Shown here: one piece after another, positions 27,755-52,729 of the stretch
Layout of the letters: each line of letters starts with the position of its first letter
Numbering within the stretch: position 1 is the stretch's first letter
Assembly: GCA_019114445.1 (NCBI GenBank)
Contig: DXFL01000005.1
Coordinates: 1-64,000 of the forward strand
From: Candidatus Barnesiella excrementigallinarum
GTDB lineage: Bacteria; Bacteroidota; Bacteroidia; Bacteroidales; Barnesiellaceae
Length of the DNA stretch: 64,000 bases
Direction: 5' to 3'
Translations under genes and position numbers: made by a program
The notes under the pieces: generated by a model
Databases searched by the model: none
The model's input: the letters and a program-made list of their open reading frames with translations, nothing else
Told to the model about the DNA's origin: nothing

Positions 27755-27779
27755 TAGTACACATTAAAGGAGAAGAAAA

Positions 27780-28598: not shown

Positions 28599-28637
28599 TC
28601 TCTCGGTTGTTTTTAACAAGAGATTCGTGAATATAGT

Positions 28638-28680
28638 ACTCGCAGCCTATTATCCCAAGATTTTAGGTTGCGGGTATTTT
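28638..28680 (+). terminator. Hairpin between tonB and the small membrane gene
   Basis: ACTCGCAGCCTA (28638-28649) can pair with TAGGTTGCGGGT (28664-28675) over 12 bp, including two G-U pairs that would be mismatches in the opposite RNA. It is followed by ATTTTAAAAA. It could be a partial terminator that lowers expression of the downstream genes. The weak T-run keeps confidence low. Confidence 0.42.
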
Positions 28681-28694
28681 AAAAATGTTAGATT

Positions 28695-28928: not shown

Positions 28929-28939
28929 AAATCGAAGTT

Positions 28940-29908: not shown

Positions 29909-29939
29909 GCAAGAAAATTACCAACTTAAAAATATATCA

Positions 29940-31613: not shown

Positions 31614-31635
31614 AAAATCCTTCTTGAATATATTT

Positions 31636-31669
31636 TGCGCGACGGCCAAAAGCTGTCGCGCATTTTTTT
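31636..31669 (+). terminator. Intrinsic terminator after the exb-tonB operon
   Basis: TGCGCGAC (31636-31643) pairs with GTCGCGCA (31655-31662), extended inward by GC/GC. It is followed by a T-run from 31663 to 31669. Confidence 0.9.
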
Positions 31670-32078
31670 CTCTTTTTCCGAACAATTATTCTATTTGTCG
31701 CGAAAAATTAAAAAAGAATATCGGCAAAGGGGTTTGTTGGAAATAAAATTTGTATATTTGTGCGACAAAATTTTTCGAGGGGTAATTTGTGGCAAGACAT
31801 ATCCCTTTTGATCGTATGTATTGCTTTAATAATAAGTTTGTTCGGCTTATGCTCTCGAAAAAGAATGAGGGAAATTTATATGTTTATCGATATACGGAAT
31901 AAGGCAATGGTAAGTTGTGCGGCGGAGTGTCCGGTGGATCGATGTCGTATCTCTTTTTCCACAGGGAAGAGAAAAATTCTGTATATATGAATGGGCGGCC
32001 TTGCATTGCGATTATGGCAATACGGGGCTTTGTCGTTTGGAAAAGAGAATAAAAAATAAATACAAACTAAATTAACGT
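31670..32078. other. Long leader region of the nuo operon
   Basis: After the exb terminator there are about 400 bases before nuoA. A TATATTTG (31753-31760) is the likely -7 element, which leaves a leader of about 310 bases. A 76-codon open frame begins at a GTG (31760) inside the -7 element, but it is not protein-like and not supported. I see no clear terminator or riboswitch fold. Confidence 0.5.
31753..31760 (+). promoter_or_regulatory. -7 promoter element of the nuo-atp array
   Basis: TATATTTG matches TAnnTTTG. A TTTG at 31733-31736 lies 16 bases upstream, closer than the usual spacing. Confidence 0.5.
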
Positions 32079-32429
32079 ATGAATTCTGCACTATTTGTAG
32101 TTGTATTGCTTACCGGATTGGCGTTGGTAGGGGCGGCTCTGTTGATAGCCGGGCTCATATCGCCTCGCTCATTCAATCCTCAAAAAGGTGAGGCTTATGA
32201 ATGTGGTATCCCTTCGCGCGGAGAATCATGGATGCAGTTCAAGGTAGGTTACTATCTGTTTGCTATTCTGTATCTGATGTTCGACGTAGAAACGGTATTC
32301 TTGTTCCCCTGGGCGGTTATTCTGAAAGATTTGGGAGTAGCCGGATTATTTAATATTTTATTTTTCATGGTTATACTTATCTTGGGATTGGTATACGCAT
32401 GGAAGAAAGGAGCGCTCGAATGGAAGTGA
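32079..32429 (+). CDS. nuoA: NADH-quinone oxidoreductase subunit A
   Basis: A 116-residue three-helix subunit at the quinone end of complex I. It carries the conserved loop QKGEAYECGIPSRGESWMQFKVGYYLFAILYLMFDVETVFLFPWA, with the reactive ECG cysteine and the FDVE helix. It overlaps nuoB by 10 bases, so translation is probably coupled. Confidence 0.96.
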   Translation: MNSALFVVVLLTGLALVGAALLIAGLISPRSFNPQKGEAYECGIPSRGESWMQFKVGYYLFAILYLMFDVETVFLFPWAVILKDLGVAGLFNILFFMVILILGLVYAWKKGALEWK

Positions 32430-33004
32430 AAATCAAATCAATGAAGTATGAAGACTTCAAAGACAATGAATATATTGAGCAACTTATCGGCGAGCTCAAA
32501 GCCTCTAACACCAATGTGGTGGTGGGATGCCTCGATGAGCTCATTAACTGGGGACGGTCCAACTCGTTGTGGCCGCTTACCTTTGCAACAAGTTGCTGCG
32601 GTATCGAGTTTATGTCGCTCGGCGCAGCACGGTACGATATGGCCCGTTTCGGGTTTGAAGTAGCCCGTGCCAGTCCGCGTCAGGCCGACTTTGTGATGGT
32701 AGCCGGAACTATTGTACATCGTATGGCCCCGGTGCTCAAACGGTTGTACGACCAGTTGGCCGAGCCCAAATATGTAGTTGCCGTAGGCGGTTGTGCCGTT
32801 TCGGGAGGCCCTTTCAAAAACTCGTATCACGTATTGAAGGGCGTAGGCGAAATTTTGCCGGTCGATGTATACATTCCCGGTTGTCCCCCGCGTCCCGAGG
32901 CTATGTTCTACGGATTGATGCAACTGCAACGCAAGGTGAAAGTTGAAAAATTCTTTGGAGGCGTAAATCGTCAAGAAAAACGAGAGAAAGTATTCGGAAA
33001 ATAA
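32420..33004 (+). CDS. nuoB: NADH-quinone oxidoreductase subunit B
   Basis: A 194-residue subunit that holds the N2 [4Fe-4S] cluster, the last electron carrier before quinone. The cysteine ligands are in TSCCGIEF, GGCAVSGG and PGCPPRPE. I prefer the ATG at 32420: AAAGGAG lies 8-14 bases upstream, and the gene overlaps nuoA's stop by 10 bases. An in-frame ATG at 32399 would give a longer start without family support. Confidence 0.95.
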   Translation: MEVKIKSMKYEDFKDNEYIEQLIGELKASNTNVVVGCLDELINWGRSNSLWPLTFATSCCGIEFMSLGAARYDMARFGFEVARASPRQADFVMVAGTIVHRMAPVLKRLYDQLAEPKYVVAVGGCAVSGGPFKNSYHVLKGVGEILPVDVYIPGCPPRPEAMFYGLMQLQRKVKVEKFFGGVNRQEKREKVFGK

Positions 33005-33018
33005 TATAAGTTACCTAT

Positions 33019-34641
33019 ATGGCAAACATACAGCAAGAAATAAGCGGTTTTCTGCCGGAAGCAACCTTTGTGGAAGGTGCGATTCTGGAAGTTGCCGTTC
33101 CCGATGCCAAGTGGCATGAGTTGGCGCTTTATTTGCGCGACAAACTGCACTTCGATTATTTGGTCTCTATCGTGGGTATGGACTGGGGCGAGACCATGGG
33201 GTGTGTCTATTATTTGACCTCCACCGCCGATAACTCGCAAATTTCGGTCAAAGTAGAGACCTCCGACCGCGAAAATCCGTTGCTTCACTCGGTATCGGAT
33301 ATTTGGAAATCGGCCAATTTATATGAACGCGAAGTTTATGACTTTTTCGGAATCCGGTTTATCAATCACCCCGATATGCGCCGTTTGTTCCTGCGCAACG
33401 ACTGGGTAGGATATCCCCTTCGCAAAGATTACAACGCCGATCCCGCAGTGAATCCCATACGCCTCGAACACGAGGCTGTCGATGATGTGACACACGCGAT
33501 TGTCGAAACTGAAAAAGGCACACTCGAAGAGCGTACCAATACGATTTTCGCCCCCGAAGAGTTTGTGGTGAATATCGGCCCTCAACACCCTGCTACTCAC
33601 GGTGTTTTGCGCTTGCGCACCTCGCTCGATGGCGAAATTGTCAAGAAAGTAGATGTATATTGCGGATATGTACACCGGGGTATAGAGAAATTGTGTGAGT
33701 CGCTCACCTATCCTCAAACCCTGCACTTTGCCGATCGTCTCGATTATCTGTCGGCACAGCAAAACCGCCATGCGGTATGCCTCTGTATCGAGGATGCTTT
33801 GCAGATAGAAGTTCCTGCTCGTGCTCAGTACATACGAACCATTATGGACGAGTTGATGCGTATTTCGTCGCACTTGTTGTTTTGGTCGACATTCTGTATG
33901 GACTTGGGCGGAACAACGGCGTTCTTCTATGGATTCCGCGACCGGGAGAAAATTCTCGACATTTTTGAAGAGACTTGCGGTGCCCGCATGACCTTCAACT
34001 ATTATACGATTGGTGGTCTTATGGCCGACTTGCACCCCGATTTCCAACGTAAGGTAAAAGAATTCTGTGCCTATTTGCCTGCCAAGTTGAAAGAATACCA
34101 CACCCTCTTTACGGGCAATGTGATTGCCCAACAACGTATGAAAGGGGTGGGCTTGCTTTCTCGCGAAGATGCCATTTCGTATGGCATTGCCGGACCTTCG
34201 GGCCGTGCTTCGGGTTGGGCTTGCGATGTGCGCAAAAATCACCCCTATGCCATGTACGACAAAGTAGAGTTCAACGAAGTGGTTCGTACCGAGGGCGATG
34301 TTTACGCCCGTTATATGGTGCGCTTGGACGAAATTTTGGAATCGATACACATCATAGAGCAACTTATCGATAATATCCCCGAAGGCGATTATGCCGTGAA
34401 GATGAAACCCATTATCAAACTGCCCGAAGGCCGTTACTTCCGTCAGGTCGAGGCCAGCCGTGGTCCGTTGGGTATCTTTATCGAAAGTCATGGCGACAAG
34501 AATCCTTACCGCTTGAAGATAAATTCGGCTTGTTTGCCTTTGGTGGCCGGCCTCGATCCCATGTGTCGGGGTGGAAAAATAGCCGACTTGATAGCCATAG
34601 GCGGTTCGCTCGATTATGTAATCCCCGATATGGACAGATAA
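33019..34641 (+). CDS. nuoCD: NADH-quinone oxidoreductase fused subunit C/D
   Basis: A 540-residue fusion. Residues 1-160 are NuoC (30-kDa) with VSIVGMDWGETMGCVYYL and EREVYDFFGIRF. A short linker (about 160-175) leads to NuoD (49-kDa) with NIGPQHPATHGVLRL, HRGIEKLCE, and CRGGKIADLIAIGGSLDYVIPDMDR at the end. NuoD forms the quinone pocket with NuoB. The NuoC-D fusion is usual in Bacteroidetes. Spacing to nuoB is 14 bases. Confidence 0.97.
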   Translation: MANIQQEISGFLPEATFVEGAILEVAVPDAKWHELALYLRDKLHFDYLVSIVGMDWGETMGCVYYLTSTADNSQISVKVETSDRENPLLHSVSDIWKSANLYEREVYDFFGIRFINHPDMRRLFLRNDWVGYPLRKDYNADPAVNPIRLEHEAVDDVTHAIVETEKGTLEERTNTIFAPEEFVVNIGPQHPATHGVLRLRTSLDGEIVKKVDVYCGYVHRGIEKLCESLTYPQTLHFADRLDYLSAQQNRHAVCLCIEDALQIEVPARAQYIRTIMDELMRISSHLLFWSTFCMDLGGTTAFFYGFRDREKILDIFEETCGARMTFNYYTIGGLMADLHPDFQRKVKEFCAYLPAKLKEYHTLFTGNVIAQQRMKGVGLLSREDAISYGIAGPSGRASGWACDVRKNHPYAMYDKVEFNEVVRTEGDVYARYMVRLDEILESIHIIEQLIDNIPEGDYAVKMKPIIKLPEGRYFRQVEASRGPLGIFIESHGDKNPYRLKINSACLPLVAGLDPMCRGGKIADLIAIGGSLDYVIPDMDR

Positions 34642-34674
34642 ATTAGTAATTAGTAATCAATTAAAGAATAAGTT

Positions 34675-35751
34675 ATGTTCGACTTTTCGATAGTTACCCA
34701 CTGGATTGATAATTTGTTGCGGAGTGTAATGCCCGGTTGGGGAGCTTTACTTGTTGAATTTGTATTGGTAGGCGTGGCGTTGCTGCTGTTGTATGCAGTA
34801 CTGGCATTGTTCTACATCTATTTCGAGCGTAAGGTTTGCGCCTTCTTCCAATGTCGTCTGGGCCCGAACCGTGTAGGCCCTTATGGAATTATCCAAAGTG
34901 TGGCCGATATGTTCAAGATATTGATCAAAGAGTTGATTTCGCTGAATCACATTGATAAATTCTTGTTCAATTTGGCTCCCTACTTGGTTATCGTAGCCTC
35001 GATGTTGGCATTCGGCTGCTTGCCTTTCGGTAGAGGATTGCAGGTGATCGATTTCAATATCGGTGTCTTTTTCCTGATTGCCGTTTCTTCGATAGGCGTG
35101 TTGGGTATTTTGTTGGCCGGTTGGTCGAGCCACAATAAGTTTACCCTTATCGGAGCTCTTCGAAGCGGTGCCCAAATGGTAAGTTACGAGCTATCCATTG
35201 GATTCTCTGTCCTTACGATGGTTGTTTTTGCAGGTACCATGTCGATAACCGGTATCGTAGAGGCACAAGCCAACGGTTGGTTTTTGTTTACCGGCCATAT
35301 TCCCGCTATCGTTGCTTTCTTGATTTACTTGGTAGCCGGTACGGCCGAGACGAACCGTGGCCCGTTCGACCTTCCCGAAGCCGAGAGTGAGTTGACGGCT
35401 GGATACCACACCGAATATTCGGGAATTCATTTCGGTTTCTTCTATTTGGCCGAATATTTGAACCTGTTTATTGTATCGGGAGTGGCTTCGTTGCTATTCT
35501 TGGGCGGGTGGATGCCGCTCCATATACCCGGTTGGGAAAGTTTCAATGCCATTATGGATTATATCCCGTCGGTAATTTGGTTCTTCGGTAAAGCCATTTT
35601 GGTATCGTTTGTAATCATTTGGTTCAAATGGACGTTCCCCCGTTTGAGAATCGACCAACTGTTGAAACTCGAATGGAAATATTTGTTACCTTTGAACTTG
35701 GTGAATCTTTTCATCATGGTGCTTGTCGTTATTTACGGTTTGCACTTTTAA
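34675..35751 (+). CDS. nuoH: NADH-quinone oxidoreductase subunit H
   Basis: A 358-residue eight-helix membrane subunit that links the quinone site to the proton channels. The signatures are [82 protein letters not shown] and [13 protein letters not shown]. No nuoG, nuoE or nuoF lies before it. It ends 36 bases before atpD, with no hairpin in that gap. Confidence 0.97.
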
Positions 35752-37302
<1,551 letters not shown>

Positions 37303-37320
37303 TGTTATAAAGTGGGAATT

Positions 37321-37554
37321 ATGGTACTTGAAATTATATCTTCGGAACAAATCCTTTTTCAAGGAGAAGTCGAGTCGGTTACCCTGCCGGGAGCACAGGG
37401 CTCGTTTACCGTTCTTGAAAATCATGCATCGCTGGTTTCGACCCTCGATGCCGGTACCATTGAATATGTAACTGCCGGAGAGCGCCATTCGGTGACGGTC
37501 AATGGCGGGTTTGTCGATGTGGATAATAACCGTGTAGCCGTGTGTGTACGGTAA
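37321..37554 (+). CDS. atpC: ATP synthase F1 subunit epsilon (short form)
   Basis: A 77-residue protein with only the N-terminal beta-sandwich of epsilon (MVLEIISSEQILFQGEVESV, LPGAQGSFTVLENHA). The C-terminal helical hairpin that inhibits ATP hydrolysis in E. coli is absent. A GTG at 37312 could start it three codons earlier, but the ATG is preferred. It lies 18 bases after atpD. Confidence 0.9.
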   Translation: MVLEIISSEQILFQGEVESVTLPGAQGSFTVLENHASLVSTLDAGTIEYVTAGERHSVTVNGGFVDVDNNRVAVCVR

Positions 37555-37568
37555 CAGGATAAAAAGAG

Positions 37569-38651
37569 ATGAGAAAACAAATCGCATACATAGTAACCTT
37601 TTTGTTGATGGCGTTTTCACTCCCGTTGTCGGCCAGCGAAAAAAGTGGCGAAAGCGAGGGTGGAAAAACCTTTAACCCGAAAGAGACGATATTTGAACAT
37701 TTGCTCGACGGTTATGAATGGGAATTACCTTTCTCGCATGAGCATAAAATATCGCTCCCGGTGATTGTAAAGGATTATAAGGGCGACTGGAAGGTGTTTT
37801 GCTCTCACCGGCTTGCCCACGGACAGGAGTACGAAGGGTTTTATATCGCACAAGACGGTCCCAACAAAGGGAAAATCGAGAGCGTAGATGATCAAGGGAA
37901 TCGTTATCGCCCGCTCGACTTGTCGATTACCAAAAATGTGCTGGCCTTGATTATTGCCGCGTTGTTGTGCGGGTGGTGTGTGTTCTCTGTGGCCCATTGG
38001 TACAAAAAGAAACACTACAAGGCTCCCCGGAAAGGCGTGGCAGCTATCGAATTTCTCATCGAATTTATTTATACGGGAGTAATAAAAAGTACGTTGGGCG
38101 ACAAGGCTCCGCGGTTTGCGCCTTACCTGTTGACCATATTCTTTTTTATCCTCTTGATGAACCTGTTGGGATTGATCGTAATCTTCCCCGGAGGAGCTAA
38201 CTTGACCGGTAATATCGCCATCACTATGGTGTTGGCACTGTGTACTTTTATTATTGTGAATGTGCGAGGAACCAAAGAGTATTGGAAAGAGATATTTTGG
38301 CCCGATGTACCCTTGTGGTTGAAATTCCCGATACCCATCATGCCGCTCATCGAAGTGTTTGGAATCTTTACCAAGCCGGCGGCTCTTATGGTACGTCTTT
38401 TTGCCAATATGATGGGAGGCCACATGATTATTTTGTCACTCATCTCGCTCATTTTCATATTCGGCGCCTTTGGTGCCGTCGTAGTAGGGGCGACAACGGT
38501 CATATCGGTGTTGTTCTCGCTGTTCATGCTGATGATCGATACGTTGGTATCGTTTATTCAAGCCTATGTATTTACCATGCTTTCGACCCTGTTCATCTCG
38601 TTGTCGCAGGTCGAAGGCCATCACGAAGGAAAAATGGAAAAAACAAAATAA
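37569..38651 (+). CDS. atpB: ATP synthase Fo subunit a
   Basis: A 360-residue Fo subunit, with a signal-like N-terminus (MRKQIAYIVTFLLMAFSLPLSAS) and a periplasmic extension of about 100 residues before the membrane part, as in other Bacteroidetes AtpB. The proton-path arginine is in KPAALMVRLFANMMGGHM, and LFSLFMLMIDTLVSFIQAYVFTMLSTLFIS is the last helical region. It starts 14 bases after atpC. Confidence 0.95.
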   Translation: MRKQIAYIVTFLLMAFSLPLSASEKSGESEGGKTFNPKETIFEHLLDGYEWELPFSHEHKISLPVIVKDYKGDWKVFCSHRLAHGQEYEGFYIAQDGPNKGKIESVDDQGNRYRPLDLSITKNVLALIIAALLCGWCVFSVAHWYKKKHYKAPRKGVAAIEFLIEFIYTGVIKSTLGDKAPRFAPYLLTIFFFILLMNLLGLIVIFPGGANLTGNIAITMVLALCTFIIVNVRGTKEYWKEIFWPDVPLWLKFPIPIMPLIEVFGIFTKPAALMVRLFANMMGGHMIILSLISLIFIFGAFGAVVVGATTVISVLFSLFMLMIDTLVSFIQAYVFTMLSTLFISLSQVEGHHEGKMEKTK

Positions 38652-38665
38652 TGTATAATCTCTAA

Positions 38666-38932
<267 letters not shown>

Positions 38933-38935
38933 GAT

Positions 38936-39433
38936 ATGGAACTGTTCACGCCCGAATTTGGCTTGGTATTTTGGATGTTCGTTGTCTTTATCATCCTTTT
39001 TGCCATTCTTGCCAAGTATGCCTGGCCCTATATCATACGCAGCCTCGACGAACGTGCCGAGTTGATAGATAAAGGGGTTGAGTATGCGCAGGAGGCAAAA
39101 GCCCAGTTGGACAATGCACAAGCCGATGCTAAAGCTCTTTTGGTCGAAGCGCAGAAACAACAGATGGAGATTCTACACGAAGCTGCCCAAATGAAAAACC
39201 GCATTATTGAGGAGGCTCGTCAGGCAGCATCGGTAGAGGCGAAGAAAGTGATGGACGCTGCGGCCGTGTCGATCGAGCAAGCTCGTAAAGAGTCGGAACT
39301 TCAATTCCGCCGCGAAGTGAGCGAATTTGCCCTGCAAATAGCGGAGAAAATGATGCGTAAGCAACTTTCTGATGATAAGACGCAGGTCGAAATGATCGAC
39401 AAGCTGTTGAATGAAATTGAGAACAAAAACTAA
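38936..39433 (+). CDS. atpF: ATP synthase Fo subunit b
   Basis: A 165-residue peripheral-stalk subunit: one membrane helix near the start (FGLVFWMFVVFIILFAILAKYAWPYI) and a long charged coiled coil (about 40-165) that reaches F1. It starts 3 bases after atpE and ends 6 bases before atpH. Confidence 0.95.
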   Translation: MELFTPEFGLVFWMFVVFIILFAILAKYAWPYIIRSLDERAELIDKGVEYAQEAKAQLDNAQADAKALLVEAQKQQMEILHEAAQMKNRIIEEARQAASVEAKKVMDAAAVSIEQARKESELQFRREVSEFALQIAEKMMRKQLSDDKTQVEMIDKLLNEIENKN

Positions 39434-39439
39434 TAGAAT

Positions 39440-39982
39440 ATGAACGAAGGGTTAATACCGAGTCGATATGCGAAAGCTCTTTATAAGTATGCCCGGGAAC
39501 ACAATGTCGCTACCCCCATTTATGAAGAGATGAAACGGCTTGAAGCCGCTTTTGCGGCTCACCCCGAGCTGTCGAAGGCATTGGGTAATCCGGCTCTTTC
39601 TCCGGTAGATAAGGCCCGGGTGTTGTCATCGGCTTTCGGTGAAAAGCCCGACGATTACCTTCTCCGTTTTGTTCAGTTGGTGATAAAGAACCGTCGCGAA
39701 ACGTTTGCGAGAGCCATTGCTTTGGCCTATCAGGAAATTTATCGTCGGGCAAACAACATTGCCCGTGTGACGATAACGACAGCCACTGACTTGGATCAAA
39801 AAGTACTCGACCGCATAGGGGGAGTGATGAAAACGCAGACGGACAAGACGCTGGAATTTGTCTATCGGGTAGATCCCTCCATTATTGGGGGATTTGTCCT
39901 GCGGGTAGATTCGAGGCAATTGGATGCGTCGGTGAATAGTGAATTAAAAAAATTGCGTTTGAAATTGCTAAACAGCAAATGA
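39440..39982 (+). CDS. atpH: ATP synthase F1 subunit delta
   Basis: A 180-residue soluble subunit connecting F1 to the b stalk. It starts [20 protein letters not shown] and ends with [28 protein letters not shown], both typical of delta. It is intermediate in similarity, as usual for this fast-evolving subunit. Confidence 0.94.
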
Positions 39983-39986
39983 TATT

Positions 39987-41564
39987 ATGATTAAACCCAG
40001 TGAAATATCGGATATTTTAAAGCAGCAACTCGACGAAGTCGACTCCAAAATCAACTTTGAAGAAGTGGGAACAGTTCTCGAAGTGGGTGATGGTGTGGCT
40101 CACGTTTACGGGCTCGAAAATGTGCGTTCAAGCGAGCTTATCGAGTTTGAGAACGGCGTACACGGAGTTGCGATGAACCTCGAAGAGAGCAATGTGGGTG
40201 TCATTTTGTTCGATAATGTCGATAAAGTCACCGAGAACATGACAGCTCGTCGTACCGGCGAGATCGCATCTCTTCCCGTAGGCGAGGGATTGCTTGGGCG
40301 GGTTATAAATACCCTGGGCGAACCTATCGACGGCGCAGGTCCCATTCAAGGCGAGTTGATACGGTTGCCTCTTGAACGCAAGGCGCCGGGTGTCATTTTC
40401 CGTCAACCCGTCGATGAACCTTTGCAAACCGGTATTAAAGCCATCGACTCGATGGTGCCTATCGGTCGCGGACAGCGTGAGTTGATTATCGGCGACCGTC
40501 AAATCGGTAAAACGGCTATTGCCATCGACACCATTATCAATCAACGGGATAACTATAAGAACGGAACGCCATTGTACTGTATCTATGTGGCTATCGGGCA
40601 GAAAGCCTCTTCGGTAGCTGCATTGGTAAATACGCTGAAAGCACACGGCGCCCTCGACTACACCGTAGTGTTGGCAGCCAATGCTTCCGATTCGGCCGCC
40701 ATGCGTTATTACGCGCCGTTTGCCGGAGCCGCCATTGGCGAATACTTCCGGGACAGCGGTCGCCACGCTTTGGTAATCTACGACGACTTGTCGAAACAGG
40801 CTGTCTCCTATCGTGAGATTTCGTTGATTTTGCGTCGTCCTTCGGGCCGTGAAGCCTATCCGGGCGATATATTCTACTTGCATTCCCGTTTGCTCGAAAG
40901 AGCTGCCAAGATTATTGCCAACGACGAAGTGGCCGCGTCGATGAACGACCTACCCGAGGTAATGAAACCGATGGTAAAAGGCGGTGGTTCGTTGACAGCT
41001 TTGCCTGTGATCGAAACACAGGCGGGCGACGTTTCGGCCTATATCCCCACGAATGTGATTTCGATTACCGACGGACAGATATTCTTGGAGACAGCGCTCT
41101 TCAATCAAGGTGTACGTCCTGCCATCAATGTGGGAATCTCGGTTTCGCGTGTGGGCGGTAAAGCTCAGGTGAAGGCAATGAAGAAGATTGCCGGAACGTT
41201 GAAGATCGATCAGGCTCAGTTCCGCGAGCTCGAATCGTTTACCAAATTCGGTGGCGATGTCGATCCCGTAACGGCGATGACTATCGACAAAGGCCGTAAG
41301 AACGAGCGTATCCTCATTCAGCCTCAATACTCGCCGGTACCCGTAGAGGAGGAGATTGCCATCATTTTCTGCGGTACGCAGGGATTGTTGCACAATGTAC
41401 CCCTCGACAAGGTAGCCGAGTTTGAGAAACTCTATTTGCAAATATTGAAGTCAAAATATAGCCGCGAGGTGATGGACGAATTGCGGAAAGGACATCTTGA
41501 CGACAAGATTTCTGCCCTCATGACCGAAGTTGCCGAAGAGGTTGCTAATCGATTTAAGGCATAG
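39987..41564 (+). CDS. atpA: ATP synthase F1 subunit alpha
   Basis: A 525-residue non-catalytic F1 subunit. It starts [19 protein letters not shown], with Walker [16 protein letters not shown] near residue 170, the GRDLL-like [14 protein letters not shown] before it, and the signature [30 protein letters not shown]. It starts 4 bases after atpH. Confidence 0.98.
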
Positions 41565-41567
41565 ACT

Positions 41568-42449
41568 ATGGCATCAATGCGCGACTTGAAAGGACGAATC
41601 GGCTCTGTCGCTTCTTCCGAAAAAATAACCGGTGCGATGAAGATGATTTCGTCGGCCAAGATGCACAAGGCCGAGCTGGCTTTGCGGCGTATCAGGCCGT
41701 TTAGAGATCAAATTCAAAACACCATCAACCACCTTGTTTCGGCCGATGCAGAATTTAGCTCGCCGCTTATGGCCGCACGTCCGGTAAAGCGGAAAGCAAT
41801 AGTTGTACTCAGCTCGGACGAGGGGTTGTGTGGCGCATTCAACATGAATCTATTTAAACACACGCTCGAAATTATCAATCGAGCAAAAGCCGAGGCCGAT
41901 AACTCCGTGATGTTTGTTGTTTATCCGATAGGAAAGAAAGCCTCGAATTTTGCTCAAAAACTGGTTGGCGACCATGTAGAGCTTGTTGTTGCCGATTACA
42001 TGACGGCTAAAAGCCCCGGCGAAGACATTGCCCGTTTTACAGGCGATTTGACCCGTGAGTTCATAGCCGGGAATCTCGATGAAATAGAGGTGGTTTACAC
42101 TCATTATAAAAGTGCCAGCAAACAGACGTTGTCCACCCGCCGGTTGTTGCCTATCGGTGCCGACGATTTATTGGCGGGGAAAAAAGTCGAGCGTAACAGA
42201 CCCTATTTGTTTGAGCCCGATGTAAAGACTATTTACGACGAGATATTGCCGCTTTTCGTATTATCGGGAATGCAGGAAGCTATTAGCTCCAATCGGGTAT
42301 CCGAACAGGCTGCCCGGGTAATGGCTATGCAATCGGCCAACGATAATGCAAAAGAGCTGTTGGAGGAGTTACAGTTGGAATACAACAAACTGCGTCAGCA
42401 AAGTATTACCTCGGAGTTGTTGGATATTTTAGGAGGAAAAGTGGATTGA
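41568..42449 (+). CDS. atpG: ATP synthase F1 subunit gamma
   Basis: A 293-residue rotor shaft. It starts MASMRDLKGRIGSVASSEKITGAMKMISSAK, has SSDEGLCGAFNMNLF and MQSANDNAKELLEELQLEYNKLRQQSITSELLDILGG at the C-terminus. It is the last atp gene; nuoI follows after 92 bases with no terminator hairpin that I can see. Confidence 0.96.
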   Translation: MASMRDLKGRIGSVASSEKITGAMKMISSAKMHKAELALRRIRPFRDQIQNTINHLVSADAEFSSPLMAARPVKRKAIVVLSSDEGLCGAFNMNLFKHTLEIINRAKAEADNSVMFVVYPIGKKASNFAQKLVGDHVELVVADYMTAKSPGEDIARFTGDLTREFIAGNLDEIEVVYTHYKSASKQTLSTRRLLPIGADDLLAGKKVERNRPYLFEPDVKTIYDEILPLFVLSGMQEAISSNRVSEQAARVMAMQSANDNAKELLEELQLEYNKLRQQSITSELLDILGGKVD

Positions 42450-42541
42450 AGTTAAGGTATAAGGAAACTTTATCTGGCTTTGTGAACGAAATAAACCATA
42501 GTGTTAACTAACAAAAATAGAAAAGTTCTATAAAGGAATTT

Positions 42542-43009
42542 ATGGGAAGTTTAAAAAATTACATTACATCTTTCTGGACAGGATTACTGAGCCTCTTCAA
42601 AGGAATGGGAGTGACCGGTAAATACTTTTTCAGCCGGAAAGTTACCGAGCAGTACCCCGAAAACCGGGCGACATTGAAAATCCCCGAGCGTTTCAGAGGC
42701 ACGTTGACTTTGATTTATGACGAAAACGGGCAGCACAAATGTATAGCCTGCGGTATTTGTCAAATGAATTGTCCTAACGGGACGATCAAAATCGAGTCGT
42801 CGAAAATTACCACCGAAGATGGTAAGACTAAGAGAGTGTTAGATAAATATTTGTACGACTTGGGCAGTTGCACATTCTGTCAACTGTGTGTAACTACTTG
42901 TCCTCACCACGCCATCAAATTCACGAACGAATTTGAACACGCCGTTTTTACGCGCGAAAAGTTGGTGAAACAGCTCAATCGTGTTGAAACCCCAACTGAA
43001 AATAATTGA
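42542..43009 (+). CDS. nuoI: NADH-quinone oxidoreductase subunit I
   Basis: A 155-residue ferredoxin-like subunit with two [4Fe-4S] clusters, N6a and N6b. The ligands are C67, C70, C73, C77 and C110, C113, C116, C120. It passes electrons toward NuoB. In this complex, which lacks NuoEFG, it probably accepts electrons from an outside donor such as ferredoxin. It resumes the nuo gene series after the atp block. Confidence 0.95.
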   Translation: MGSLKNYITSFWTGLLSLFKGMGVTGKYFFSRKVTEQYPENRATLKIPERFRGTLTLIYDENGQHKCIACGICQMNCPNGTIKIESSKITTEDGKTKRVLDKYLYDLGSCTFCQLCVTTCPHHAIKFTNEFEHAVFTREKLVKQLNRVETPTENN

Positions 43010-43017
43010 TTGACATT

Positions 43018-43536
43018 ATGGAACAAATAGCAAATCAAGTTATCTTCGGCTTGCTGGCATTGGTCATTGTGGTATGTTCGGTTCTCACCGTTACCACACG
43101 ACGCATATTGCGGGCAGCCACGTACCTCCTGTTTGTGCTTTTTGCGACAGCCGGTATCTATTTTCAGCTTGACTATACATTCTTAGGAGCCGTACAATTA
43201 GCCGTTTATGCCGGTGGTATTGTGGTACTGTTTGTATTCTCTATCCTCTTGACGAGCCGCCCGGGCGACAAGTCGGAGTTCCTGACCCCTAAGAAACGTG
43301 TTGTCGGCCTCATTGCTTCGATATTCGGTGCGATCGTGTGCGGATATACGTTACTCACGTATCCCTTCTTTACCAAACCGCTCACCAGTGTGATCACGGG
43401 TGAGGTCGATATGAAGGTAATCGGTCACGCCCTCATGGGAATGGACAAATACCAGTATTTGTTACCCTTCGAAGCTATCAGTGTGTTGTTATTGGCTTGT
43501 ATCATCGGAGGCATTATGATTGCCCGTAAAAGATAA
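43018..43536 (+). CDS. nuoJ: NADH-quinone oxidoreductase subunit J
   Basis: A 172-residue five-helix membrane subunit. ILRAATYLLFVLFATAGIYFQLDYTFLGAVQLAVYAGGIVVLFVFSILL carries the family's TM3 segment. The ATG at 43018 is used; an in-frame TTG at 43006 overlaps nuoI's end. It follows nuoI by 8 bases and nuoK starts 5 bases after it. Confidence 0.94.
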   Translation: MEQIANQVIFGLLALVIVVCSVLTVTTRRILRAATYLLFVLFATAGIYFQLDYTFLGAVQLAVYAGGIVVLFVFSILLTSRPGDKSEFLTPKKRVVGLIASIFGAIVCGYTLLTYPFFTKPLTSVITGEVDMKVIGHALMGMDKYQYLLPFEAISVLLLACIIGGIMIARKR

Positions 43537-43541
43537 GAACT

Positions 43542-43853
43542 ATGGAAATACCAATGATTGCTTATTTGGTGGTAAGTACCATCATGTTTTTTGCCGGAGT
43601 TTACGGGTTTATCACACGTAAGAATATGTTGGCCATGCTCATTTCGCTCGAATTGATGTTGAATGCAGCCGACATCAACTTTGTGGTGTTCAACCGGTAT
43701 TTATATCCCGAAGCATTTGAGGGATTCTTTTTCACCCTCTTTGCAATAGGTATTGCCGCTGCCGAAACAGCGCTTGCCATTGCGATCATCATCAATATTT
43801 TCCGCCATATACGGAATATTGAAGTGCGTAACCTTGATAAAATGAAATATTGA
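43542..43853 (+). CDS. nuoK: NADH-quinone oxidoreductase subunit K
   Basis: A 103-residue three-helix subunit related to MrpC antiporter subunits. The two buried glutamates are in MLISLELMLNAADINF and IGIAAAETALAIAI. It starts 5 bases after nuoJ, and nuoL begins 5 bases after its stop. Confidence 0.95.
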   Translation: MEIPMIAYLVVSTIMFFAGVYGFITRKNMLAMLISLELMLNAADINFVVFNRYLYPEAFEGFFFTLFAIGIAAAETALAIAIIINIFRHIRNIEVRNLDKMKY

Positions 43854-43858
43854 TCGAT

Positions 43859-45766
43859 ATGGAATATTCAGTTATAATACTTTTACTTCCGCTTTGTATG
43901 TTCCTCTTTTTGGGACTTGCCGGGCATAAGTTGAGCGAGCGTGTAGCCGGAATATTGGGGACTATCGGGTTGACGATAGCCACTGTGGTGGCCTATATGG
44001 TAGCGTTCAACTATTTTACCATGCCGCGTAATGCAGAAGGCGTTTTTGAAACGTTGCAGCCGATCAATCTCGAATGGTTGCGCTTTACCGAACATTTGCA
44101 CATCGATTTGGGTATTTTGCTGGACCCCATCTCGGTGATGATGTTGGTTGTTATCACCACGGTATCGTTGATGGTACATATTTATAGTTTAGGCTATATG
44201 CACGGTGAGAAAGGTTTCCAACGCTATTATGCCTTCTTGTCGTTGTTCAGTTTCTCTATGTTGGGACTGGTTGTTGCCACGAACATATTCCAAATGTATA
44301 TTTTCTGGGAGCTGGTGGGTGTATCGTCCTATCTGCTTATCGGATTCTATTATACAAAACCGGCGGCGGTATCGGCGTCGAAAAAAGCCTTTATCGTTAC
44401 CCGCTTTGCCGACTTGGGCTTCTTGATCGGTATCCTTATCCTTTCGTTCTTTACCGAGACGTTCGATTTCGCTACGCTCATGTCCAATCCTACATCGTTG
44501 GTAACCGAAACGGCCGGCATGACCTTCATGGGCTGTTCGGTAGCTGCTTGGGCAATGGCATTGATTTTCATGGGTGGTGCCGGTAAATCGGCCATGTTCC
44601 CGTTGCATATATGGTTGCCCGATGCCATGGAGGGTCCTACTCCCGTATCGGCTTTAATCCATGCTGCCACGATGGTGGTTGCCGGTGTTTACTTGGTGGC
44701 CCGTTTGTTCCCCATGTATTGTGCCGTACCCGAAGTGCTCGATTTGATTACGTGGGTAGGTGCCATCACCGCTTTGTATGCGGCTGTGGTAGCTTGCGTA
44801 CAGACCGATATTAAACGTGTGTTGGCCTTCTCGACCATTTCGCAAATTGCCTTTATGATGGTAGCTTTGGGTGTTGCTTTCAATACCGATTTGCACACCG
44901 GTCTCGGTTACATGGCCTCCATGTTCCACTTGTTTACGCACGCCATGTTCAAGGCATTGCTCTTCCTCGGAGCCGGTTGCATTATCCACGCCGTTCACTC
45001 CAACGAAATGTCCGAGATGGGCAACTTGCGCAAATATATGCCGGTAACTCATATCACCTTCTTGATTGCCTGCTTGGCTATTGCCGGTATTCCTCCCTTC
45101 TCGGGATTTTTCAGTAAGGACGAAATCCTTACCGCAGTTTTCGAAAAGAGTACTTTTTGGGGTGTTTGGATGACGGCTGTGGCCGGTCTCACGGCATTCT
45201 ATATGTTCCGTTTGTACTATCGTATTTTCTGGTGGAGCAAACCTACATACGAACATCATACTCCGCATGAGGCTCCCATGACGATGTATTTGCCGTTGGT
45301 GTTCCTCGCATTGGTTACTTGTGTGGCCGGGTTCATTCCCTTCGGCGAATTCGTTTCGGTAAACGGTGAGGCCTATCACATTCATCTCGACTGGTCGGTA
45401 GCAACCACGAGTATTATTGTTGCTGTTGCAGCTATTGCTTTGGCTACATGGATGTATTTGTCGGAAAACTCCAAACCCAAAGCGCTTGCCGACAAGTTCC
45501 GCGCTCTGCATACGGCTGCTTATCGCCGTTTCTACATGGACGAGCTTTATATGTGGGTTACCCATAAAATTATATTCCAACGTATTTGCCGGCCTATCGC
45601 TTGGTTCGACCGCCATATTGTCGACGGTACGATGAATATGCTGGCTACCGTTACCAACAGCGTTTCGTACGGTATACGCAAGTTGCAATCGGGATATATC
45701 CAATGGTATGTATGGGTATTCATTATGGGTGCTTTGTTAATCGCCGTGTTGGCAATGTGCTTTTAA
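43859..45766 (+). CDS. nuoL: NADH-quinone oxidoreductase subunit L
   Basis: A 635-residue antiporter-like subunit with about 16 helices and the long lateral helix toward the C-terminus. The pump residues lie in FWELVGVSSYLLIGFYY, GGAGKSAMFPLHIWLPDAMEGPTPVSALIHAATMV and the HAMFKALLFLGAG segment. The ATG at 43859 is preferred over the TTG at 43850, which overlaps nuoK. Confidence 0.96.
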   Translation: MEYSVIILLLPLCMFLFLGLAGHKLSERVAGILGTIGLTIATVVAYMVAFNYFTMPRNAEGVFETLQPINLEWLRFTEHLHIDLGILLDPISVMMLVVITTVSLMVHIYSLGYMHGEKGFQRYYAFLSLFSFSMLGLVVATNIFQMYIFWELVGVSSYLLIGFYYTKPAAVSASKKAFIVTRFADLGFLIGILILSFFTETFDFATLMSNPTSLVTETAGMTFMGCSVAAWAMALIFMGGAGKSAMFPLHIWLPDAMEGPTPVSALIHAATMVVAGVYLVARLFPMYCAVPEVLDLITWVGAITALYAAVVACVQTDIKRVLAFSTISQIAFMMVALGVAFNTDLHTGLGYMASMFHLFTHAMFKALLFLGAGCIIHAVHSNEMSEMGNLRKYMPVTHITFLIACLAIAGIPPFSGFFSKDEILTAVFEKSTFWGVWMTAVAGLTAFYMFRLYYRIFWWSKPTYEHHTPHEAPMTMYLPLVFLALVTCVAGFIPFGEFVSVNGEAYHIHLDWSVATTSIIVAVAAIALATWMYLSENSKPKALADKFRALHTAAYRRFYMDELYMWVTHKIIFQRICRPIAWFDRHIVDGTMNMLATVTNSVSYGIRKLQSGYIQWYVWVFIMGALLIAVLAMCF

Positions 45767-45801
45767 CTAATGGTTGAACGATAAAATATTAAAGAAAGAC
45801 T

Positions 45802-47292
45802 ATGAATTTTCTATCATTATTTGTGCTTATCCCTCTCTTGATGATGCTGGGACTCTGGATCTCAAGAGATATGAAACAGATACGAACGGTAGCGGTTATC
45901 GGTTCAACCTTATTGTTGGCGTTGTCCGTATATACTCTCGTTGAGTTTTTGGCCGAACGCGCTGCTGGAAATACAGCGACGATGTTGTTTACCGACAGTC
46001 GTATGTGGTATGCCCCGCTGAATATCCACTATGCAGTGGGTGTAGATGGTGTTTCGGTAGCCATGCTGCTGCTTTCGTCCATTATCGTATTTGCGGGAGT
46101 TTTCGCTTCGTGGAAAATCGATCCGCTTCCCAAAGAATTTTTCTTGTGGTTTATGCTGCTCTCTACCGGTGTATTCGGATTCTTTATTTCGGTAGACCTC
46201 TTCACCATGTTTATGTTCTATGAGGTGGCTCTTATTCCCATGTACTTGTTGATAGGTGTTTGGGGTAGCGGACGCAAGACCTATTCGGCCATGAAGTTGA
46301 CGTTGATGTTGATGGGTGGTTCGGCTTTGTTGATGATCGGTATATTGGGTATCTACTACCAATCGGGCTTGCACTCGATGAATGTGGTTGAAATAGCCGA
46401 GAACGGCAATATCCCCATGAACTGGCAATACTTCCTCTTCCCCATGACTTTTGTGGGATTCGGTGTGCTGGGAGCTATGTTCCCGTTCCACACTTGGTCG
46501 CCCGACGGTCACGCTTCGGCGCCTACCGCCGTGTCGATGTTGCACGCCGGCGTGTTGATGAAACTGGGAGGTTACGGTTGTTTCCGTGTGGCTATCTATT
46601 TGATGCCGCAGGCTGCTACCGAGTTGGCTTGGATATTCTTGATCCTTACCGGTATCAGCGTGGTTTACGGAGCATTTAGCGCTTGTGTACAAACCGACTT
46701 GAAATATATCAATGCCTACTCTTCGGTAAGTCACTGCGGATTGGTACTGTTTGCAATCCTTATGCTGAATACGACCGCCATGACCGGTGCCGTAATGCAA
46801 ATGCTTTCGCACGGTTTGATGACGGCTCTCTTCTTTGCCCTTATCGGTATGATTTACGGTCGTACACACACCCGCGATATTCGCGAAATGGGTGGCTTGA
46901 TGCAAATCATGCCCTTCCTTTCGGTATGCTATGTAGTTGCCGGTTTGGCTTCGCTGGGTTTGCCGGGATTGAGCGGCTTTGTAGCCGAGATGACGATTTT
47001 TGTCGGCTCGTTTGAGCACGCCGATACCTTCCATCGGGTACTGACTATTGTGGCTTGTACTTCGATCGTGATCACCGCGGTTTATATCTTGCGAGTTGTG
47101 GGCAAACTGTTGTTCGGTGCTGTCCAAAACGAACACCACCGCGAATTGACCGATGCCGAATGGTGGGAACGTCTTTCGGCCATTACACTCATTGTATGTG
47201 TAGCTGCTATCGGTTGTTTCCCGAATTGGATTTCCGATTTGATTCGTCACGGTGTAGAACCTATCACTAATTTGTTGTCTCAAGCTCTTTAA
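45802..47292 (+). CDS. nuoM: NADH-quinone oxidoreductase subunit M
   Basis: A 496-residue antiporter-like subunit. The family segments are [51 protein letters not shown] and [25 protein letters not shown]. It provides one proton path in the membrane arm. It follows nuoL by 35 bases and nuoN by 11. Confidence 0.96.
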
Positions 47293-47303
47293 TAATACAG
47301 TAT

Positions 47304-48740
47304 ATGGATTATTCTCAATTTTTAATTATGCGCTCGGAAATATCGTTGCTGGTTGTATTCCTGCTGATATTTCTTATTGACACCTTTGGTGGGCAAAAGA
47401 GCCTCAAAGGATTATCGGTTGCAGCGTGTGTTTTATTTGGTCTGCATACGATTTGGAATATTATGCCGGTCGATTCGGTTTCGGCTTTCGGCGGTATGTA
47501 CCAGACCTCGCCTATTGCTTCGATGGTTAAAACCGTACTCAATATAGGTACATTCATTGTATTGCTGCAATCTATTTCGTGGTCCAATACCCCCGATATG
47601 AAATTGCGTCGGGGTGAATTTTACGAGTTGTTGTTGGTAACCCTCTTCGGTATGTACCTGATGGTTTCGTCGGGACACTTCCTGCTCTTCTTCATCGGGC
47701 TCGAAACCGCTTCGTTGCCTATGGCTGCTTTGATTGCCATCAATAAAAGAGATACCGAATCGTATGAGGCCGGAGCCAAATACCTCTTTACGGCAGTATT
47801 CTCCTCGGCAGTGTTCCTATTGGGCCTTTCGTTCCTGTATGGCGTGTCGGGGACACTCTATTTCGACGATATTGCCATTAGCATTGCTACGAATCACACT
47901 CCGTTGCTTATTGCTACTCTTGCCTTTGTGTTGGCCGGTATGGGATTCAAACTTTCGTTGGTACCGTTCCACTTGTGGACTGCCGACGTTTATCAAGGTG
48001 CACCCACACAAGTAACCTCTTATTTGTCGGTTATTTCGAAAGGTGCCGCAGCTTTTGCCTTGATGTTGATCCTGTTTAAGGTCTTTTTCTTCGACCCGGT
48101 TATTTGGCAAGGTATCATGTGGGTATTGATTGTATTGACGATTACCATAGGTAACTTGTTTGCCATTCGCCAAAAGAACCTCAAACGTTTCTTGGCTTTC
48201 TCGTCTATCTCGCAAGCCGGATATATCATGCTGGGTATTCAAGCCGGTTCGGGACAAGGTATGGCCGCATTGGTTTACTATGTGCTGGTATATATCTTCT
48301 CCAACTTGGCTGCTTTCGGTGTGATTTCGTCGATTGAGCGTAGCTGCGGGAAAGTAGGAATGGACGACTACAACGGTTTGTACAAGACCAATCCCAAACT
48401 GAGTGTTGTGATGATGTTGGCCATGTTCTCTTTGGCCGGTATTCCTCCTTTCGCCGGATTTTTCAGCAAGTTCTTCATCTTTGCTTCGGCTATCCACTCG
48501 GGATTCTACATCTTGGTACTCATTGCGTTGCTGAACACGATTATCTCGCTCTACTATTATTTGTTGGTTGTAAAGGCCATGTTTATCAACGATAGCGAGG
48601 GTGGGTGTGCTATAGCTCCGTTCCGCAGCGATAGTGGGTCGCGTATAAGTCTCGTCGTTTGTGTAGCCGGTATCCTGCTGTTGGGTATTGCAAGTTGCGT
48701 ATATGCCTATTTCACAGACCTGAGTATGTTGGGTATTTGA
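47304..48740 (+). CDS. nuoN: NADH-quinone oxidoreductase subunit N
   Basis: A 478-residue antiporter-like subunit. [47 protein letters not shown] and [33 protein letters not shown] are the characteristic segments. It is the last gene of the nuo series; a strong bidirectional terminator follows 21 bases later. Confidence 0.96.
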
Positions 48741-48760
48741 TTATTATAACTTTCTATAAT

Positions 48761-48806
48761 AAAGTAATAGGCCGGAAAGAATTTTACTTTCCGGCCTATT
48801 ACTTTT
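48761..48806. terminator. Bidirectional terminator between nuoN and the CcsBA gene
   Basis: The arms 48761-48779 and 48787-48805 are perfectly complementary over 19 bp around a 7-base loop (AATTTTA), with T- and A-runs at the ends. It lies between convergent genes. Confidence 0.9.
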
Positions 48807-48819
48807 AAGAAGGTATTAA

Positions 48820-51003
48820 TTAGGCGTAACTGTGCATACCGCCTAACAGGAAATTAACACCGAAATAGGTGATAAGTACACAGAAAAAAGCCATTACGCA
48901 GAATCCGTGGAAAAATATGGTTTTCTTGAAAAGAGGTAACGAGTTTTGATGTAAAGCCAAAGCATAGACAAGCCAAGTGATGAGGGCCCATACTTCTTTT
49001 GGATCCCATCCCCAGTATCGCCCCCATGAAATGTTGGCCCAAACGGCACCCACAAATATACCTGCTGCTAAGGAAAATACGGCGGGATAGAGGAGTAGGC
49101 GCCCTACAATTTGTAATTGGTCGGCCCTGTTGGGGTGGTTCCGATACAGGAAAAGTCCGGCGATACCGTTGAACATAGTAAAGGTTAGCAGTGTATAAGC
49201 TATCATGACAAGAACCACATGTATCGAAAGCAGGGGAGAGGTGAGTACCGGCATAAGCGGTGTGATTTGGGGATTGGATTCTCCCATCATCGAGACCAGC
49301 ATGGCAAGCCCGCTTACCAAATAGCCGAACGGTATAATTAGTATGAATTTGCGATAGCCTATGAGGCTAATCCCCAGGGCACACCATGCCATAAATTGCA
49401 TAGTTTCAAACCCATTGGAGAGGGGCCAGTGTTTGGCGATGTAGGCCCGCAGGAGTAGAGAAAGCGAGAGATAGGTAAACCCGATAATTGCACCGCCTAA
49501 TAATAGACGGCGTACTATGACCAATCCGGGATTATCCTGTATAATGCGGCGACAAGCATAGATAAAAGCTACAATACCTGTGAGAATGAAAAAAATAGCC
49601 AAGTTGAGCGAGTAGTTTGTGCGGTTGTAGAGCCGTTCGGCTTGTAATCGGGTTTGTGAAGGGTACTCGTTCCCACAGATTTTTTGTTGGTATAGCTCTA
49701 TTTTTCCAAGAACTCGATGCAACTCGGAATAATCTCGTTTTGCAACAAGTTCATTTACAAAGTTCATCGATTGATTGATGAATATCTCTTGTTCGTGGGG
49801 TAATTCTTTCGGTAGAATATCGACCTGAGAGGCCCAGTACAAAGTGTTGTTCACGCGATAGGGGAAAATTTTCAGCATGGATCCGGTGCAAATCATGGCT
49901 ACGAGGTTGAATTTTTCATAGGCTTCGGCTACTCCCCGGTCGTTTATATTTTCAATTCGGAAGTTTCGTATGGCTCGATTAAAATCGGTCAGTTTAGCAT
50001 ATTGGCCTTCGATTTTGAGTAATCGACGGGCTTCGCCGCTTTTTATTTTTATCATTTGTTCCTGTTTCCATTCGTCGTAGTAGAAGAGCCAGCCTGAGAG
50101 CACTTGTTCAGCAGTGAGGCCGCGGTAGCTGCTTTTTCCATATAGTTTTACCGTAAAATCTCGAGCCAGGGTGGAGAGTGGGCAAATTCGCTGGTTATAG
50201 TAGATACAGAGCCGTCCTAAATCGTCCGAGAGATTGTACGGTAGGGTTGGAGGTATCGGTTTTTCTGCGTGAGCTGGGAGCTGTATAGCCAACAATGCAA
50301 TACAACCGAGTGTAATTCTTTTTAAAGTTTGGTTTTTCAGTAGCCGGCGGAATGGCCCATTGGGGTCGGAGAGTAAAAATATCATGGATAACAGTAACAA
50401 CAGGTAGCCTGTATAGGTGACTCCGATGCCCCAGGGATCGTGTGCGACCGAAAGCCGGGTTCCGGCTTCGTCGGAGTCGTAGGATGACTGGTAGAAACGG
50501 TAGTTTTTATACCGGGCGATATGATTCATGGCGACAGTCTCGGTTACTTTTTTGTCCTTGTCGGTAAAGATTATGCGACTTACAAAATCGAGGGGGGCTT
50601 GTGTTCCTGGATAGTATTCGATATAAAATTTTTCCAATTCGATTTGAAAAGGGAAGTATTGTTCTCGACCGTCCGTATCGATATATACCGAAGTGGGATT
50701 TTCATCTATGCGTAAATGTAAGGTCCCCCGTTCCCCGGAAAGCCAGGAGATGAAGGCTCCGCAAAGGATGAGCAAGAGGGAAAAGTGCAGCATCCAAGTG
50801 ACAAATCGTAGTGAACGGTGCCGTAAAAGGTAGATTATGGAAAGTATTGCCAAGACAAACCAAAGCCCCACGAACCAAAATGATTGATAGATATATCGGG
50901 AGACAAAATCGCTTCCGTAATATTTCTCAATCACGGAAGCTGTTACTAATAACAACAGAATTATACCTAATAGGCAGAATGTTGTTCGTTTGAGTATCTT
51001 CAT
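48820..51003 (-). CDS. Cytochrome c biogenesis protein, fused ResB/CcsA (CcsBA type)
   Basis: A 727-residue membrane protein of system II cytochrome c maturation. The N-terminal half (1-260) resembles ResB/CcsB, with membrane helices and a periplasmic loop region. The C-terminal half is CcsA, with the haem-handling tryptophan-rich WWD segment WGRYWGWDPKEVWALITW (near residue 660) and several conserved histidines in the helices around it. The protein carries haem across the membrane and attaches it to CXXCH motifs in the periplasm. Its neighbour on the same strand encodes a dihaem CXXCH protein, a likely client. Confidence 0.92.
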   Translation of the reverse strand: MKILKRTTFCLLGIILLLLVTASVIEKYYGSDFVSRYIYQSFWFVGLWFVLAILSIIYLLRHRSLRFVTWMLHFSLLLILCGAFISWLSGERGTLHLRIDENPTSVYIDTDGREQYFPFQIELEKFYIEYYPGTQAPLDFVSRIIFTDKDKKVTETVAMNHIARYKNYRFYQSSYDSDEAGTRLSVAHDPWGIGVTYTGYLLLLLSMIFLLSDPNGPFRRLLKNQTLKRITLGCIALLAIQLPAHAEKPIPPTLPYNLSDDLGRLCIYYNQRICPLSTLARDFTVKLYGKSSYRGLTAEQVLSGWLFYYDEWKQEQMIKIKSGEARRLLKIEGQYAKLTDFNRAIRNFRIENINDRGVAEAYEKFNLVAMICTGSMLKIFPYRVNNTLYWASQVDILPKELPHEQEIFINQSMNFVNELVAKRDYSELHRVLGKIELYQQKICGNEYPSQTRLQAERLYNRTNYSLNLAIFFILTGIVAFIYACRRIIQDNPGLVIVRRLLLGGAIIGFTYLSLSLLLRAYIAKHWPLSNGFETMQFMAWCALGISLIGYRKFILIIPFGYLVSGLAMLVSMMGESNPQITPLMPVLTSPLLSIHVVLVMIAYTLLTFTMFNGIAGLFLYRNHPNRADQLQIVGRLLLYPAVFSLAAGIFVGAVWANISWGRYWGWDPKEVWALITWLVYALALHQNSLPLFKKTIFFHGFCVMAFFCVLITYFGVNFLLGGMHSYA

Positions 51004-51030
51004 TTTTTAGAAGGTATGTTTTTATACCAT

Positions 51031-51061
51031 GAAATGCCGATGTAATGGACATCGGCATTTC
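51031..51061 (-). terminator. Hairpin between the dihaem protein gene and the CcsBA gene
   Basis: GAAATGCCGATGT (51031-51043) pairs exactly with ACATCGGCATTTC (51049-51061) around a 5-base loop. The T-run is poor, so it may only partly stop transcription of the barrel-imelysin-dihaem unit before the CcsBA gene. Confidence 0.6.
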
Positions 51062-51084
51062 GTAGGATTTTGCAAAACGTTTAA

Positions 51085-52707: not shown

Positions 52708-52729
52708 AGCTTTTGGAATTATGTGGTAT

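Follow-up and report, generated by a model that had tools for sequence, protein, structure and literature searches.

An F-type ATP synthase operon within the complex I operon of Barnesiella and related gut Bacteroidales

How does a complete operon for an F-type ATP synthase come to lie inside the operon for a respiratory pump, and would the two be expressed together there? The question is raised by a 64,000-nucleotide (nt) stretch of Candidatus Barnesiella excrementigallinarum (contig DXFL01000005.1, positions 1 to 64,000; hereafter the window, meaning this whole stretch), in which eight atp genes stand between nuoH and nuoI of the genes for complex I. The same gene order is conserved in relatives that form one clade in trees of Nuo proteins and of RpoB, the corresponding sites outside that clade are empty, and the encoded c subunit is of the H+ type. 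We consider it very probable that the atp operon entered nuo in a single ancestral insertion, that it has been inherited since, and that the run forms one transcription unit. A respiratory pump operon fused with an ATP synthase operon has been retained across one branch of the major gut bacteria, which makes it testable whether ATP synthase expression tracks respiration in these anaerobes.

Layout and predicted function of the run

Open reading frame (ORF) listing and NCBIfam profile scans define an unbroken run of 18 genes on the forward strand (32079-48740), consisting of nuoA-B-CD-H, atpDCBEFHAG and nuoIJKLMN. The run and its flanking signals are as follows.

31733-31760, +: Bacteroidales-type promoter-like site, TTTG-N16-TATATTTG, about 320 nt upstream of nuoA (consensus scan)
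32079-32429, +: nuoA (best match NF005839, E 2.4e-31, below the model's cut-off)
32399-33004, +: nuoB (NF011391, E 2e-113; Cys 66, 67, 132 and 162)
33019-34641, +: nuoCD fusion (NuoD and NuoC models)
34675-35751, +: nuoH, final gene ahead of the insert (NF004741, above cut-off)
35752-35787, +: left junction, nuoH-atpD, 36 nt; no terminator found by dedicated search
35788-37302, +: atpD (beta), divergent lineage, Walker A GGAGVGKT (NCBIfam, trees, motif check)
37312-37554, +: atpC (epsilon), short, 80 amino acids (aa) (NCBIfam)
37569-38651, +: atpB (a subunit), conserved Arg within RLFANMMGGH (NCBIfam, motif check)
38678-38932, +: atpE (c subunit), E-G-V at the ion site (NCBIfam, alignment)
38936-39433, +: atpF (b) (NCBIfam)
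39440-39982, +: atpH (delta) (NCBIfam)
39987-41564, +: atpA (alpha), P-loop GDRQIGKT (NCBIfam, alignment)
41568-42449, +: atpG (gamma), final gene of the insert (NCBIfam)
42450-42541, +: right junction, atpG-nuoI, 92 nt; the terminator-like hairpin of relatives not found
42542-43009, +: nuoI, two 4Fe-4S motifs (just under the TIGR01971 cut-off)
43006-43536, +: nuoJ (NCBIfam match below cut-offs)
43542-43853, +: nuoK (NCBIfam)
43850-45766, +: nuoL (NF005141, E 3.2e-188)
45802-47292, +: nuoM (NCBIfam)
47304-48740, +: nuoN (NCBIfam)
48761-48805, unstranded: strong hairpin ending the run, between convergent genes (folding)

This gene order on one strand, and the gaps of 36 and 92 nt at the two junctions, are exactly those given by the original prediction, which was made from the letters of the window. 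NuoA, NuoI and NuoJ are clear family matches yet fall under curated cut-offs, and their names are strengthened by position within the run. The 11-subunit complex I set is complete (NuoA, B, CD and H-N); nuoE, nuoF and nuoG are absent from the 18 genes, no search for them having been made in the rest of the genome. All eight F-type subunits are encoded side by side, and the profile for the a subunit, ATP-synt_A, has a single match in the whole genome, the copy in the window. Chance or misassembly as the source of the layout is ruled out by the many other genomes with identical order.

Characteristic residues are present in both complexes. NuoB carries Cys 66, 67, 132 and 162 and NuoI two CxxCxxCxxxC motifs, which we take to be Fe-S ligands; the P-loops of beta and alpha, the Arg of the a subunit and the Glu of the c subunit are likewise in place. 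An E-S/T pair marks Na+-binding c subunits, whereas the ion site of AtpE reads E-G-V and bears no Na+ signature, so that the ATP synthase is predicted from its c subunit type to translocate H+, and Na+ coupling is rejected as the cause of its capture. Complex I would probably pump H+ with a donor other than NADH, and F1Fo would make ATP from the H+ gradient or hydrolyse ATP at low electron flow. In the loci measured, fused and ordinary alike, AtpC is only 77-90 aa long, and this short form presumably does without the C-terminal regulatory domain.

Distribution and origin of the layout

To inventory the nuoH-atpD adjacency, 295 genomes from about 120 families of the order were searched with NuoH and AtpD. 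Among the matches listed, 107 genomes had NuoH at 50% identity or more and 71 of these also had AtpD; the adjacency counts rest on best matches among those listed. On that basis atpD directly follows nuoH on the same strand in 22 of the 71 genomes, hereafter termed fused, and does not in 49. The 22 belong to seven families: f1 (Barnesiella), f22, f26 (Muribaculaceae), f29 (including Ca. Caccoplasma, G243), f61 (including Coprobacter secundus, G173), f69 and f89 (including Ca. Gallibacteroides, G197). Genus-mates of the window are Barnesiella sp. An22 (G003, NZ_NFJR01000007.1) and a further Barnesiella (G005, CALUFO010000018.1). Within Muribaculaceae, 99 genomes were searched and 94 of the 98 with NuoH show the adjacency; three exceptions lie at contig ends (G727, G725 and G755) and one, G773, counts neither way.

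Forty regions were fetched, comprising 24 fused loci, 14 in which nuoH is followed by nuoI, and two with atp genes only. Twenty-two of the fused regions are complete from nuoA to nuoN, and one (L078) stops early; in L083 (G241), the 20 kb that follow nuoI at 12524 gave no match to nuoJ-N, which may reflect rearrangement or divergence. A further 80 named loci, retrieved as best matches to a 14-row NuoH alignment with 10 rows from fused genomes and hence biased to near relatives, comprise 68 with nuoH-atpD, 10 with nuoH-nuoI (including Butyricimonas, Odoribacteraceae, Rikenellaceae and others) and two running off the contig. At the level of the class, where part of the rows (61 genomes) was compared, the adjacency occurs among the matches listed only in the window's genome and in G029, and class-wide recurrence is rejected, although rarer cases may exist. 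The original prediction had named the same order in many Bacteroidales families as the finding that would make the layout ordinary. The order does recur in seven families, but these are seven of about 120 sampled and form one clade: the layout is ordinary for the Barnesiella/Coprobacter/Muribaculaceae clade and not peculiar to the source genome.

Trees place the fused genomes together. In a tree of NuoB, CD, H, I, K and L, the 15 fused among 29 rows fall on one side of a branch with an SH-aLRT of 100, and in an RpoB tree the 16 fused among 29 rows do so with support 99 (RpoB was not found in G096). All trees are quick searches, and RpoB is the sole species marker besides Nuo. In all 14 nuo regions from families without the layout nuoH directly precedes nuoI, which supports the claim, made at the outset from the window, that the atp block was inserted between these genes. 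Since the fused genomes share one branch and the outgroups have nuoH-nuoI, one insertion is enough. On this account, the branch of gut Bacteroidales that holds Barnesiella, Coprobacter and Muribaculaceae would descend from an ancestor in whose 11-subunit complex I operon a complete eight-gene F-type operon became lodged, a single time, between nuoH and nuoI; its descendants would have inherited the arrangement. The subgroups recovered inside the clade are the same in the Nuo tree as in the atp tree: f1 groups with f22 and f26, f61 groups with f69 and f29, and f89 falls outside or is unresolved. Such agreement is what shared inheritance predicts. Resolution is lower in the RpoB tree, which sets f89 near f61 and f69.

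Lineage of the inserted ATP synthase

Where did the inserted operon come from? In the AtpD tree, a long branch (length 0.45, support 100) separates 15 fused rows and two rows of a further family, f107, from the 47 others, which include other orders of the class. This family holds Butyricimonas (G798, NZ_KB903359.1; G819, NZ_FXXL01000007.1) and presumably Odoribacter splanchnicus (G805); we call it Odoribacteraceae from these members, and apply "gut" to its divergent-type members by the same names. We favor, with modest confidence, the explanation that the atp block is a xenolog: gut Odoribacteraceae and the fused clade's ancestor would have been the partners of a horizontal exchange, and in the latter the block would have replaced the ordinary operon and been captured in nuo. 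Such a history refines the single insertion and does not oppose it.

Several lines of evidence point this way. First, the family is split between AtpD types: relative to the window, 22 of its 48 genomes have AtpD at 80-84% identity and 19 at 69-71%, and seven have no full F-type AtpD. A constraint that joins 13 divergent and nine ordinary AtpD of the family as a single clade costs 155 log-likelihood units and is rejected (p-AU printed as 9.96e-178), in a test confined to AtpD, the only ordinary row of the family in the multi-subunit tree (G799) being a long branch. Second, a clade of fused genomes plus f107 is rejected by both RpoB (p-AU 0.026) and Nuo (0.0049), although the former value is marginal, the trees are quick and the group was picked after the atp tree had been seen. 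Third, mean identity between fused genomes and f107 exceeds that between fused genomes and others in all seven subunits compared (14 fused and two f107 genomes; AtpE left out), for example 81 versus 73 for AtpD and 49 versus 36 for AtpF. Fourth, nine AtpD and five AtpA alignment columns are fixed in nine fused and five f107 rows and absent from nine others.

A gene-content character agrees. Of 14 ordinary loci, 13 have a membrane ORF of 87-142 aa separating atpC from atpB, and this ORF is absent from all seven fused and all five gut Odoribacteraceae divergent loci inspected; the lone ordinary locus that also lacks it, L191 (family f9), counts against its use as a shared mark. The ORFs are small and hydrophobic (L187, L189, L190, L192, L194-L198, L200, L201, L205 and L206), and we presume that they may encode an AtpI-like assembly factor. 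Divergent-type members of the family have a compact atp operon, unlike nine stretches from the same family with ordinary AtpD (L282-L290), in which atpD-atpC stand apart from the other atp genes.

Transfer may have run either way, monophyly of the fused genomes in the atp trees having support of just 77-92. In one of these trees an AtpD paralog stood in for AtpA in each of six rows (G144, G099, G246, G046, G237 and G141), and those rows sit on a branch 4.75 long; the remaining atp trees filter by score. No outside donor was seen: in the phylum sample the best non-fused full-length matches, G172 from the same order and G333 from a different order of the class, stand at 74%, and full-length matches outside the class reach 72%, against a best identity of 75% for ordinary rows among the matches listed in the order and class samples. 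Judged from these comparisons, the divergent lineage is, within our samples, common to the fused clade and gut Odoribacteraceae only.

Both atp types occur within the order, and within one family, as would also follow if a Bacteroidales ancestor had held both after an old duplication, with differential loss and no transfer. We think this unlikely: no genome with both types appears among the matches listed, and many losses would be needed over some 120 families of the order. Returning to transfer, its fullest form, in which a divergent operon seen in our samples only in gut-type Bacteroidales was swapped between ancestors, displaced the ordinary one, and was captured into nuo, which would place the sole rotary ATPase detected in the cell under respiratory control, seems to us evenly balanced between true and false. 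If true, transfer would provide a clear case of a core eight-gene complex replaced among gut Bacteroidales, combining whole-complex replacement of a core enzyme with operon fusion.

Transcription of the run and relation to known systems

Would the fused genes be transcribed together? The original prediction of no terminator hairpin at either junction agrees with the terminator search, which detected none in the window. At the right junction the sequence forms a weak hairpin that lacks a T-run, and a generic forward-strand scan near the junctions gave only a weak candidate inside atpD (35817-35835). Downstream of nuoN the window has a terminator-like hairpin, as do 19 of 22 loci with the fused layout, a set without shuffle control. 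With the promoter-like site before nuoA, the hairpin after nuoN and no terminator at the junctions of the window, co-transcription of nuo and atp is plausible, and we infer that all 18 genes most likely belong to a single transcription unit.

Around the run, genes of cytochrome c assembly/ResB-like, di-haem oxidoreductase and imelysin (M75) type converge on its end from the reverse strand (48820-53950), and the genes upstream on the forward strand (26431-31613) encode two ExbD proteins and one protein each of TonB_C, PBP-like and TPR type.

An alternative is that nuoA-H, atp and nuoI-N form three adjoining, separately regulated units whose order has been kept by inertia, and a number of observations weigh on its side and against a single unit. 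The spacer of a Bacteroidales-type promoter is usually 19-21 nt, and that of the site at 31733 is 16 nt; a further TTTG/TATATTTG match lies at 31807, and the whole window holds eight on the forward and three on the reverse strand. A TANNTTTG element (-7 type) occurs at 35687, inside nuoH and 101 nt upstream of atpD, and a sigma-70-type match at 35739-35766 reaches across the left junction. Six of seven other Barnesiella genomes carry a terminator-like hairpin between atpG and nuoI. Conserved order, moreover, is no proof of selection for co-expression, which may or may not be the reason for the layout.

The promoter-like matches have to be read against their background, with six TANNTTTG elements on the forward strand of 31500-48900 versus about four expected by simple arithmetic, none of them within either junction gap of the window, and 41 sigma-70-type matches in the region versus 30.6 in shuffles. 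The hairpins after atpG are likewise ambiguous. Among the 64 gaps that measure 15 nt or more, 16 have one, against about 3% in shuffles, yet they are nearly as common on the reverse strand (13 of 64). Carriers include one of three loci of f61 (the Coprobacter family), f69, one f89 locus and five of 43 named loci; with 11 of 24 other loci, this frequency leads us to reject the terminator as a clade-wide trait. Three loci (L080, L081 and L140) have an identical hairpin, so that the cases are not all independent. The other gaps of the run give 0-3 forward hits each and up to 11 on the reverse strand, and terminator-like hairpins after separate atp operons, a candidate origin of the atpG-nuoI hairpin, occur in three of 13 gut Odoribacteraceae and four of 13 ordinary loci (81 of 650 shuffles). 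The atpG-nuoI hairpins suggest partial uncoupling in those relatives, or may be bidirectional or not terminators at all. Elsewhere in the clade the gap is merely 6-17 nt in f29 and 10 nt in L182, which with the lack of terminator-like hairpins at the junctions of the window argues against three units.

A bearing on the same alternative comes from V-type ATPases. The V-type subunit a (V_ATPase_I; other V-type subunits were not searched) has no match in any of 17 fused genomes, so that F1Fo is probably their sole rotary ATPase; as the only F-type enzyme found in the genome as well, the ATP synthase of the cell would probably depend on the nuo promoter. The subunit is also missing, however, from four of 13 non-fused genomes (eight matched above cut-off and one weakly), which makes V-type loss a weaker marker for the clade and is a further point against our interpretation. 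This result and the promoter-like matches near the left junction led us to weigh separate regulation slightly higher and our main explanation slightly lower, and we still regard separate regulation as quite unlikely. The fixed ratio of pump to ATP synthase that the original prediction proposed is not supported, given the hairpins in most of the other Barnesiella genomes, and expression of atp and of distal nuo need not match and may vary between species.

Parts of this arrangement have precedents. The complex I operon of Bacteroides fragilis also lacks nuoEFG, its NUO makes no contribution to NADH oxidation, and another donor than NADH has been proposed for it; in contrast to the present locus, no ATP synthase is described inside that operon (BF638R_0850-0841) in the passages cited (PMC7002350). 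The internal order of the insert is identical to that of the compact Bacteroidetes unit beta-epsilon-a-c-b-delta-alpha-gamma, a minor transcription unit concentrated in Bacteroides and Prevotella, whose published description, in the part cited, gives it without nuo context (PMC5709465). The gut Odoribacteraceae operon (Butyricimonas and probable Odoribacter) is alike in divergent lineage, gene order and absence of the atpC-atpB ORF; it does not lie beside nuoH (in G114 some 23 kb separate the two, which lie on opposite strands), and, unlike the fused genomes, this family has V-type subunit a in three of three genomes tested.

Closest is the 2016 account of S24-7, or Ca. Homeothermaceae (Muribaculaceae), where, in the part of that report cited, an F-type ATP synthase is integrated in the complex I locus, with 11 of 14 complex I subunits present and NuoEFG missing (PMC4936053). 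The core layout is already published for that sister family. In the open-access literature searched, no paper among the matches listed treats the divergent atp lineage or its transfer, judged from titles and abstract openings. Relative to the S24-7 report as cited, the present work adds Barnesiella, Coprobacter and further families, their placement on one branch, and, more interesting than the layout itself, the recognition that the inserted ATP synthase belongs to a divergent lineage shared with gut Odoribacteraceae.

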